Source of the DNA: Clostridia bacterium
Lineage (GTDB): Bacteria > Bacillota > Peptococcia > DRI-13 > UBA5745
Length of the DNA: 64,000 nt
Direction of reading: 5' to 3'
Assembly: GCA_018436095.1 (NCBI GenBank)
Contig: JAHDMJ010000007.1
Coordinates: forward strand, 186,001-250,000
Positions 3,732 to 43,976 of the stretch are shown piece after piece. Each line of letters starts with the position of its first letter. Position 1 is the first letter of the stretch. Made by a program: the position numbers and the translations under genes. The notes under the pieces were generated by a model. That model had not been told where the DNA came from. It did no database searches and saw nothing but the letters and a program-made list of their open reading frames with translations.

Positions 3732-3836
3732 GCTTTCACCTGTTTTCAGAACGCTCCGTAAGCCTGTCCAAAATTTTCGGTTGCAGGCAGATTTCAGGCT
3801 AAATCGGGGTTGCATTTTGCCTACAGCTGAAGAGCC

Positions 3837-23729: not shown

Positions 23730-23783
23730 AGGCAGATACTTAGGGCGCAGGGCAGTGACCGACCGGCGGATCTGTTCCGTTTT

Positions 23784-24080
23784 TTCGGTTGTATGTGTTT
23801 TCAGGGTTAGGCCTGCTCAAAAATTTCGGTTGTATGCACTTTTGGCACCTGGCCTGCTCAAAAATTTCGGTTGTATGCACTTTTGGCATCTGGCCTGTTC
23901 AATTTTTTCGGCTGTATGTAAAATGCAGAGCCTGAAACAACAATTTCAGCCCAAATCGGAGCATTTTTTTCGAGTGTATGCCGTTTTGAGGCCAAATTGA
24001 GGTCACATTTTACATACAAACGCAATTTTTGCTCATCTGGATTAGCCAATTTACATACAAACGCAATTTTTGTACAGACG
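23784..24080. repeat. Inverted-repeat element, locus A: arms repeated with a 41-bp period
   Basis: Left side: 41-bp units beginning at 23810, 23851 and 23892 (first two nearly identical, third diverged), each with GCTCAAAAATTTCGGTTGTA, and a degenerate copy near 23779. Right side: units at 24012 and 24053, also 41 bp apart, with ACATACAAACGCAATTTTTG, roughly the reverse complement of the left arm (about 20 of 25 matches). The middle holds TTTCAGCCCAAATCGG (23944) and GAGGCCAAATTGA (23988). No coding potential. Confidence 0.8.
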
Positions 24081-24136
24081 GCCTGCTCCGGCGAACATCC
24101 ATAGGTTCACGACCTTTTTTCCTAAAATGACATCCG

Positions 24137-24284
24137 CCAAAGGGTCCTACGGACTCAATCCTGCGGATACAATCTGCTATCCTTAGCCGCTTGGGGCGCA
24201 GATGTTCTGCTATCCTTAAATACTTAGTGCGCAAATGGTCCTACAGACTCAATTTGCTATCCTTAAATACTTAGTGCGCAAATG
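24137..24284 (+). repeat. Tandem repeats in the leader of sbp
   Basis: CTGCTATCCTTA-type units recur three times, two of them with CTTAAATACTTAGTGCGCAAATG, and a GGTCCTAC(G/A)GACTCAAT word occurs twice. The last unit ends just before the AGGAGG of sbp, so the array is likely in its 5' untranslated region. Confidence 0.7.
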
Positions 24285-24300
24285 TAGGAGGTTTTTCGGA

Positions 24301-25454: not shown

Positions 25455-25519
25455 CTTTGCTGCCGGCGGGTGATTTGCATACAAACGGTAAAAAGAGCAG
25501 GTACGGACAAGACAAACCG

Positions 25520-25870
25520 AAGTCACTGAAAAAGTCGCGTAAGCTAATCTCGTCATCTAAATCCGAAAAAATTTGAACGACTTTTCAGGCTCCTCATCTG
25601 GGTGGTCTATTTTGTGCAAAAATGCAGGTTTGTATCATCAACTCAAGTGTTTTGCTCAAAATTGCAAGTTTGTAGAATGCATTTTGGTCTGGAAATATGG
25701 TTTCACCCCATTTATGGGGCCAAATTTGTTCCAAAGCAGGAATTTAGAGGTATACAAACCTGCATTTTTGCTCAGTTAGCTAAAGCGAATGATGACAAAC
25801 CTGCATTTTTGCTCAGTTAGCCTATGCGAATGATGACAAACCTGCATTTTTGAGCAGTCAGGCCCGACAG
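25520..25870. repeat. Inverted-repeat element, locus B: three 41-bp units opposite two inverted copies
   Basis: Right side: 41-bp units start at 25754, 25795 and 25836 (third partial), each with ACAAACCTGCATTTTTG. Left side: inverted copies at 25616-25634 and about 25655-25674 (40-bp step). The 19-bp arm 25616-25634 is a perfect reverse complement of 25753-25771. Core GGGGCCAAATTTG at 25717. Upstream, TGAAAAAGTCG (25528) and CGACTTTTCA (25578) form another inverted pair. Downstream, AAGCTGACCGTCGT near 25877 resembles locus C. Confidence 0.82.
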
Positions 25871-25927
25871 AGGGGTAAGCTGACCGTCGTGGGCTGAAAT
25901 GTACAAGGCCTGTGATTTGCCGCCAAC

Positions 25928-25983
25928 TTTTTCACTGGCCCTTTTTCAGTGCCCTTTTTCAGTGCCCCTTTTCAGTGCCCTCA
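25928..25983. repeat. Short tandem array, about four 13-14 bp units
   Basis: TTTTTCAGTGCCC-like units repeated four times between locus B and the DUF3343 gene. The stretch 25455-26104 contains only repeat DNA and no gene. Confidence 0.75.
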
Positions 25984-40976: not shown

Positions 40977-41045
40977 ATAATGCATAAGCGGCGTGTAAAC
41001 CGCCGGACCCGCCAAGGCCAAATCGTCTGCCTGTTTTCGCCAGGC

Positions 41046-41137
41046 TGCGATTAGCTGATATCCCACTATGCGATTGGCTCATATCCAATACTGCGATTGG
41101 CTCATATCCAATACTGCGATTGGCCTATATCCTATGC
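41046..41137. repeat. Four 23-bp direct repeats between ilvD and the ZIP gene
   Basis: Units at 41046, 41069, 41092 and 41115, consensus TGCGATTGGCTCATATCCAA plus TAC; units two and three are identical. No coding potential on either strand. Confidence 0.85.
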
Positions 41138-41207
41138 TGCGGCCGTCCGATACCTATCCCTATACATAAATCGCCTTTGCTCAGCATAATCTTTCTTGGG
41201 TGATAGC

Positions 41208-42024: not shown

Positions 42025-42423
42025 ATGAATAGACAAGCATCCGCCTCACAAAAAGGAAAACAAAAAAATATTCTTATAACCGGCTTGCCCACCGGCTTCA
42101 TCAACGGCCTTTTGGGCAGCGGCGGCGGCTCTTACCTGGTGCCCCAGCTTACCCGCAAGCTAAAACTGGAGCAGCAAATAGCCCACGCTACTTCCCTTAT
42201 CATTATCATGCCGACAACGCTTTTAAGCCTGGCCGTGTACCTTTTTAAACAGCCTCTGCCTTTGACCATGCTCCTTTATACCATTGCCGGCGGCTGCATT
42301 GGCGGCTTGGTCGGCGCTAAGCTGCTGACCAAAGTCCCCGGCTTATGGCTGGCCCTGATTTTCGGCTGCATATTGTTGATTTCCGGCTGTCGTATGGCCT
42401 GGGCCGGGTTTTTCGGCGGCTGA
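42025..42423 (+). CDS. Half-size TauE/SafE family membrane protein (first)
   Basis: 132 residues, about four helices, one TauE/SafE repeat only; typical family members have about 250 residues with two repeats. 'GFINGLLGSGGGSYLVPQL' is the conserved first-helix motif. Family members export sulfite/sulfonates or related organic anions. A partner half gene follows at 42600, so a two-chain transporter is likely. Ribosome site weak. Confidence 0.8.
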   Translation: MNRQASASQKGKQKNILITGLPTGFINGLLGSGGGSYLVPQLTRKLKLEQQIAHATSLIIIMPTTLLSLAVYLFKQPLPLTMLLYTIAGGCIGGLVGAKLLTKVPGLWLALIFGCILLISGCRMAWAGFFGG

Positions 42424-42480
42424 AAGCTGCCAAAGGTGGTTGAAAGCTGCCAAAATCGGCTGAAAGCTGCCAAAGACCGG
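42421..42480. repeat. Three 20-bp direct repeats between the TauE/SafE halves
   Basis: Units at 42421, 42441 and 42461 each begin TGAAAGCTGCCAAA. The first TGA is the stop codon of the upstream gene, so the array begins exactly at the gene end. Confidence 0.85.
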
Positions 42481-43020: not shown

Positions 43021-43330
43021 TTTTGGCCGATTTTAGCCTGAAAATGGACTGAAACCCCTATTTTGCAGGTAAAAACCTTTTATAAAATGAGGACACTGAA
43101 ACAGTCGTACAAGCTGACCGTCATAAAGCTGACCGTCATAAAGCTGACCGTCGTAAAGCTGAAATGTACAAAATTTGAGGTTTTGTGGCTGTTGTTCCTT
43201 TAGAATAGTAGATTTAAACTATGCCTACACTAAATATAGGGAGAAATCAGTGTTCAGTAGCGTAAAACTTGAAATTTTCAGCAGTTAGCTAATGCAAATA
43301 TCCATAAAACCTCATTTTTTGTACACACGG
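43021..43330. repeat. Inverted-repeat element, locus C
   Basis: Arms 43166-43188 and 43302-43324 are reverse complements at 20 of 23 positions (GTACAAAATTTGAGGTTTTG versus CAAAACCTCATTTTTTGTAC-like). The family core TTTTCAGGCTAAAATCGG is on the minus strand at about 43024-43044. Three 15-bp units AAGCTGACCGTCATA start at 43111, 43126 and 43141; a single relative is near 25877. Confidence 0.78.
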
Positions 43331-43390: not shown

Positions 43391-43617
43391 GCTCAAAAAA
43401 CGAAGTTGTGTTGCAGCGAACATCAAATTTAGGCTAAAAGCAGAGGCTAACTGCACAAAAAACGAAGTTGTGTTGCACTATTTCCTTTAAATTTGGCTCA
43501 AATTACGAAAAACTACCCTCTAATCCGTCTACAACTTCGATTTTTGTGCATCTGGACCCGAAAAACGGTCAAATCCGCTGCCTGCCGGAACACAACCTCG
43601 ATTTTTGTGCAGTTAGT
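43391..43617. repeat. Inverted-repeat element, locus D: arms repeated with a 61-62 bp step
   Basis: Left arms at about 43391 and 43452 (CAAAAAACGAAGTTGTGTTG; 62-bp step). Right arms ACAACTTCGATTTTTGTGCA at 43531 and a variant ending at 43611 (61-bp step). 43452-43471 and 43531-43550 pair with one mismatch in 20. Core AAATTTGGCTCAAAT at about 43488. The whole stretch 42972-44028 has no supportable gene. Confidence 0.8.
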
Positions 43618-43870: not shown

Positions 43871-43976
43871 TTTATTTCAATGCTGTCTTCTAAACTCTAA
43901 TCATCTGCTCATTTTATTTCAATGCTATCTTCTAAGCTCTAATCACCTGCTCATTTTATTTCAATATTATCTGCCA
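43871..43976. repeat. 42-bp direct repeats, two and a half copies
   Basis: Units beginning TTTATTTCAATGCT at 43871, 43913 and (partial) 43955, with TCTTCTAAACTCTAATCA-like interiors. Directly downstream of the NYN gene, and followed by two short GATTTTCAATGCT copies. Confidence 0.8.

Follow-up and report, generated by a model that had tools for sequence, protein, structure and literature searches.

Arrays of inverted repeat units on a common helical grid within MITE-like elements of a Clostridia bacterium

In the gap that separates two plus-strand genes, one for DUF881 and one for DUF1290, the window analysed here (64,000 nucleotides, positions 186001-250000 of contig C17 in G000, a 3.7-Mb assembly of 38 contigs) carries a set of repeats, designated locus A, whose two sides are mutually inverted. 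The earlier note had described units stepping by 41 bp with arms complementary at about 80%, and took the pairing kept within each locus as a sign of selection on structure or of repeated gene conversion. The stepping and the inversion are confirmed: locus A (23784-24080) has three left and two right units in 41-bp steps, the left units in register at 23783, 23824 and 23865 with a period of 41 bp and the right units at 24006 and 24047, 41 bp apart, and complementarity between the arms of its two sides is 74-85%. Tandem Repeats Finder reports a repeat at 23810-23918 with a period of 41. All five units belong to the class designated I below. The outermost left unit lies at 23815-23833 on the minus strand (genome position C17:209815) and is followed, at 41-bp steps on the same strand, by a second at 23856-23874 and a diverged third at 23897-23915; the right units lie on the plus strand at 24016-24034 and, 41 bp on, at 24057-24075. 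A putative right terminal repeat of the beta type (TIR-beta; CCTAAAATGACAT, two mismatches) was found on the minus strand at 24121-24134, and no left TIR is recognisable at this locus. Beside locus A, at 24144-24285, a dispersed repeat of ~33 bp (TGCTATCCTTAAATACTTAGTGCGCAAATG) stands in tandem; it recurs at other places in the genome, and related copies stand at the orthologous place in L068.

The same design is present at sister loci, and the window holds in total three array loci, one of them made of two adjacent elements, and one relic. Locus C (25610-25865) has a left TIR-alpha (GAAGTCACTGAAAAAGTC) at 25519-25536 on the plus strand, two class IV units on the minus strand (left, 25613-25635; left inner, 25653-25673) and three on the plus strand at 25754-25774, 25795-25815 and 25836-25856, each of the last two 41 bp on from its predecessor. 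A 13-bp tandem array (CTTTTTCAGTGCC) at 25927-25981 resembles repeated TIR-alpha ends. Locus D comprises the two adjacent elements, with arrays at 43165-43325 and 43391-43614. The first, of class V, has a left TIR-alpha (GAGGACACTGAAACAGTC) at 43089-43106 on the plus strand, a left unit at 43165-43185 (minus) and a right unit at 43306-43325 (plus); a 15-bp tandem array (AAGCTGACCGTCATA) lies within it at 43111-43162, and other class V copies have shorter versions of this array. The second, of class II, has left outer and inner units on the minus strand at 43391-43410 and, 62 bp on, at 43453-43472, and right inner and outer units on the plus strand at 43531-43550 and, 61 bp on, at 43592-43611. 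Locus B, near 3766-3835 on the plus strand, is a short, truncated class I relic with a TTTCAGGCTAAATCGG interior.

Searched across G000, the unit pattern ACAANCNNNATTTTTGNNC (at most one mismatch) gave 228 matches against 11 for the reversed control, and a stricter pattern gave 144 against 0, with 45 against 0 in the congener G004. The TTTTTGnnCA end pointed out in the earlier note is thus real, lying far above chance, and the loci of the window belong to a genome-wide family. The "core" words proposed together with it were rejected as a family-defining motif, being near or at chance or specific to class I: TTTCAGNCNAAATCGG occurs five times in the genome, and GRGGCCAAATTTG eight times in the window against 8.6 expected. 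Among 46 genomes of the class, G000 and G004 alone rose above background; arrays are absent from the other 44, all at background, which include three congeners of lower completeness. Searches of plasmids, phages and viral contigs, with one class or one pattern each, returned no copies. Loci around the matches were taken from both G000 and G004, and the counts that follow refer to this sampled sequence. It contains 154 arrays, 13 of which are overlapped over more than half their length by an open reading frame of at least 120 aa, and the family is mostly intergenic.

The units are ~22 bp long, with the outward consensus (C)ANACAA(C/A)C..(A/T)6TTG..CA, and sort into at least four word classes, the unit words being ACAAACGnAAnTTTTGnnCA in class I, ACAAC(C/T)TCGATTTTTGTGCA in classes II and III, ACAAACCTGCATTTTTGCnCA in class IV and AAAACCTCAAATTTTGTACA in class V. 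The idea that arm words differ between loci therefore holds in part: distinct word sets exist, but they are specific to a class and not to a locus. Class I arrays usually have five units (L2-41-L1-73-L0, then R1-41-R2), class II arrays have four, with 62, 78 and 62 bp between pattern starts, and those of classes III and V mostly have one inverted pair each. Class II copies are ~91% identical per column, as would be expected of a recent expansion. The unit ACAA..(A/T)6TTG is an imperfect palindrome with an interchangeable A/T tract; in class I this tract is ~90-100% A/T, with A and T replacing one another, and a tract that is nearly pure A/T yet tolerates such interchange suggests a groove- or shape-like requirement.

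The conserved property of the arrays is their helical phase, a grid of 10.3 bp or one turn of the DNA helix, and not the pairing of their arms. For the 154 arrays, which cover four unit-word classes, the distances from a unit to one of opposite orientation cluster at 66, 76, 87, 97, 107, 118, 128, 139, 149, 160, 169, 180, 190, 201, 210, 221, 231, 242, 251, 261 and 270 bp, and the 580 distances give a Rayleigh resultant of R = 0.84 for a period of 10.32 bp. When each class-distance value is counted once (n = 132), R is 0.66, against 0.28 for the 99.9th percentile of the null. Copies share ancestry and are thus partly dependent, as are distances inside one array, so the test relied on is that in which each cluster of similar interiors contributes one modal span; this gave R = 0.76 at a period of 10.34 bp (n = 33) and was matched by 0 of 2000 random sets, with the proviso that the clusters may hide distant common ancestry. 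Same-orientation spacings also fall on the grid (R = 0.92; unique values, R = 0.75). The overall span is mostly 220-221 bp in both class I and class II arrays despite their differing internal spacing, length variants lie one helical turn apart (137/147/158 and 210/220/231/242), and the locus A unit span (23815-24075, 261 bp) falls on the 10.3-bp comb. The noise is greatest in class IV, where the best period of 10.20 bp gives R = 0.73, and the distances of class V taken by itself are too few to define a period. As a negative control, TIR-to-TIR lengths were unphased (R = 0.20, p = 0.4); from TIR-alpha to the nearest unit, phasing was weak at most (R = 0.52, p = 0.01).

Kept pairing, by comparison, found no support. 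Covariation was assessed in 23 oriented copies of class II, the best-conserved class, over the helices L2-R2 and L1-R1. Paired cells made up 93.6% against 93.4% in shuffles, and doubly changed pairs numbered 4 against 3.2, so that compensatory changes between the arms do not rise above the shuffled level. Outer arms of class II are no more alike within a locus than between loci (identity 0.847 and 0.842, p = 0.17). Class I has a small within-locus excess of 0.01-0.03 (p = 0.016, 0.002, 0.060 and 0.002), which subfamily ancestry can explain. It is precisely in the A/T tract that many class I units differ from one side to the other: in the class I arrays of G004, the three central A/T positions are complementary between the two sides in 0 of 17, and the hairpin or covariation model was rejected on this non-complementary tract together with the class II pair counts. 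Locus A itself folds moderately better than its shuffles (z = -2.5 as RNA, -3.0 as DNA). Searches of the window against Rfam gave no match, and no tRNA match was found.

The arrays lie inside elements of ~190-580 bp between terminal repeats. TIR-alpha (GAGGGCACTGAAAAAGTC; 63 copies against 2 in the control) ends most class II and class V elements, and direct repeats of 7-9 bp lie just outside it in 18 of 35 candidate pairs against a mean of 1.9 in shuffled pairings, in a test that permitted one-base offsets and in which some candidate pairs overlap. Several alpha elements have exact 9-bp duplications (CGATGAACC, CTTTGCCGC, ACTTTGCAC, GATAGTGCA, GGCTGGGTC and GACTTTTCG). TIR-beta (AATGTCATTTAG) ends many class I elements, and two elements of G000 have exact 11-bp duplications with it, C38:78017 (GGGGATAATGC) and C30:54979 (AGCTTATGGGC), a small sample in which one of the two elements encloses a class II array; in the congener, beta duplications are imperfect and likewise few. 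For nine elements of G000, the two flanks were joined and the result was compared with G004. At C30:54979 the alignment is contiguous across the junction and the element is missing; at C37:89058 and C38:78017 both flanks align and the element is missing, with small deletions near the junction; the remaining six have no orthologous match on both sides. The orthologous region of L068 lacks both locus A and locus C, although its intergenic sequence corresponding to locus A is otherwise too changed for a clean empty site. The flanks of four alpha elements of G000 (C34:82149, C6:37022, C19:41667 and C37:11963; L148, L053, L108 and L153) contain class III or IV units; elements are often nested in this way, so that arrays serve as insertion targets for each other. 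Outside the outer units there is no consistent direct repeat of 8 bp or more, and these units are thus probably not the cut ends. Short, non-coding and present in many copies, with TIRs, target-site duplications and orthologous empty sites, the elements are MITE-like, non-autonomous and mobile.

The reading favoured here, at a probability of about 0.7, is that these are MITE-like non-autonomous elements whose interiors carry arrays of ~22-bp candidate sites for a multimeric DNA-binding protein. The constraint on helical phase, the indifference to A or T and the lack of covariation together point to double-stranded DNA bound on one face by such a protein. Each array would present one to three sites in one orientation, an interior, and one to three sites in the opposite orientation, all on a common helical face with a period of 10.3 bp; the protein would dock on them cooperatively, looping or wrapping the short DNA. 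The element might benefit through synapsis of its ends or regulation of transposition, while transposases supplied in trans would act at the terminal repeats and so move the array. The mobility of the elements makes a transposition protein the natural candidate, as at the ends of IS21, Tn7 and Mu with their multiple sites. Most likely, the docking protein belongs to an autonomous relative, now lost or unassembled, and is its transposase or an accessory in its transposition. Among the matches listed, no TIR pair surrounds a gene as in an autonomous copy, in draft assemblies that break at repeats. A candidate docking protein was not found; the transposase profile search of the genome covered PF01609 and gave a single match, a frameshifted relic at L194 ~1280-2500 in which the DUF772 part is read in another frame than DDE_Tnp_1. 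As one dead relic with unrelated ends, IS4/DDE_Tnp_1 was rejected as the source of the elements. Should the phasing be the work of a protein complex, more than 100 natural variants would reveal which site words, orientations and spacings that complex tolerates. It could then be tested how a short transposable DNA meets the helical constraint of joining two ends, and uncultured Clostridia would be shown to harbour a new class of mobile element built on arrays of sites.

In plasmid iterons and looping operators, which are single-locus systems, binding sites are likewise repeated in a fixed helical phase; the arrays described here share the phasing but are mobile and dispersed. Like the bacterial MITEs Correia/NEMIS (PMC2229807), the elements are small, non-coding, mostly intergenic and multicopy, with TIRs and target-site duplications. 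The 155-bp Correia element has an internal IHF site (PMC2229807), whereas the interior here is a phased array in which one site is present several times and in both orientations, its design is shared by two TIR types, and no autonomous partner was seen. BIME/REP sequences, proposed to be non-autonomous mobile elements served by RAYT transposases, and of which BIMEs bind IHF and gyrase (PMC2817692), likewise consist of dispersed intergenic units with an inverted layout and regular spacing. The present units differ in being weak palindromes with an interchangeable A/T tract that do not look like stable hairpins, and the elements in having TIRs at their ends and duplications of 9-11 bp, which would be expected from DDE-type transposition and not from the hairpin-recognising Y1 type. 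Ends of the IS21 family, Tn7 and Mu have at least two direct copies of the transposase site each (L1/L2, R1/R2), and a tetramer synapses them (PMC10122671). The arrays resemble these in their several direct site copies; unlike the repeats at the very ends of IS21, which produces 5-bp duplications on insertion (PMC10122671), they are internal to other TIRs, with duplications of 9 or 11 bp outside alpha or beta. MITEs with an internal protein site are already known; in the literature searched, subscription papers being out of its reach, neither a mobile array with all its sites on a common helical grid nor any other bacterial element with helically phased internal repeats is described.

Since arrays occur with two unrelated terminal-repeat types, there is room for a host protein or for an independent module. 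The main alternative for the docking protein is accordingly a host DNA-architectural protein or regulator, the arrays being mobile operators or loop anchors carried along in MITEs and serving the host by DNA looping or by insulating neighbouring transcription; this is possible, though clearly less probable than a transposition function. Looping regulators typically show helical phasing, and the arrays lie mostly between genes, with divergent settings under-represented (43 convergent, 70 co-directional and 15 divergent), but purifying selection on insertions would equally deplete divergent intergenic regions. An architectural protein would usually also be older than a family missing from the rest of the class, the less complete congeners included, and at the sites compared the congener does not share the array positions. 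About equally tentative is the proposal of a selfish module in its own right: the array would be a helically phased platform on which one dedicated multimeric protein docks, would have been taken up by two or more unrelated families of transposon ends, and would have split into classes that differ in recognition words and share an identical geometry. The occurrence of one kind of array in two TIR families with different duplication lengths means that a single transposase for array and ends is not the simplest arrangement.

It is unlikely that the elements are ordinary MITEs with no role for a protein, their interior repeats being remnants of gene conversion and duplication in place and the regular spacing an inheritance from one ancestor. 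Tandem duplication can produce 41-bp steps, and the similarity of class II copies fits a recent expansion, but one helical phase is common to the spans of 33 interior clusters, variants differ by single turns where unconstrained indels would give all lengths, and the TIR-to-TIR lengths of the same elements are unphased. Least probable are RNA or single-stranded DNA hairpins selected for pairing, such as attC-like or REP-like folded sites, which would suit the inverted arms and the fold of locus A but give no reason to expect total spans on a 10.3-bp comb, and which are opposed by the class II copies without covariation, the nil or slight matching of arms within loci, the central tract non-complementary in 17 of 17 congener arrays and the empty Rfam search.

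Further tandem repeats were observed in the part of the window around locus D. A 42-bp repeat (TTTATTTCAATGCTATCTTCTAAACTCTAATCACCTGCTCAT) is present in 2.4 copies at 43871-43972, and a 23-bp repeat (TGCGATTGGCTCATATCCAATAC) at 41045-41141 lies directly upstream of a ZIP transporter gene. An open reading frame at 42025-42475, with a 20-bp tandem repeat (GGCGGCTGAAAGCTGCCAAA) at its end, matches just the latter half of the TauE/SafE profile and is possibly a gene remnant.
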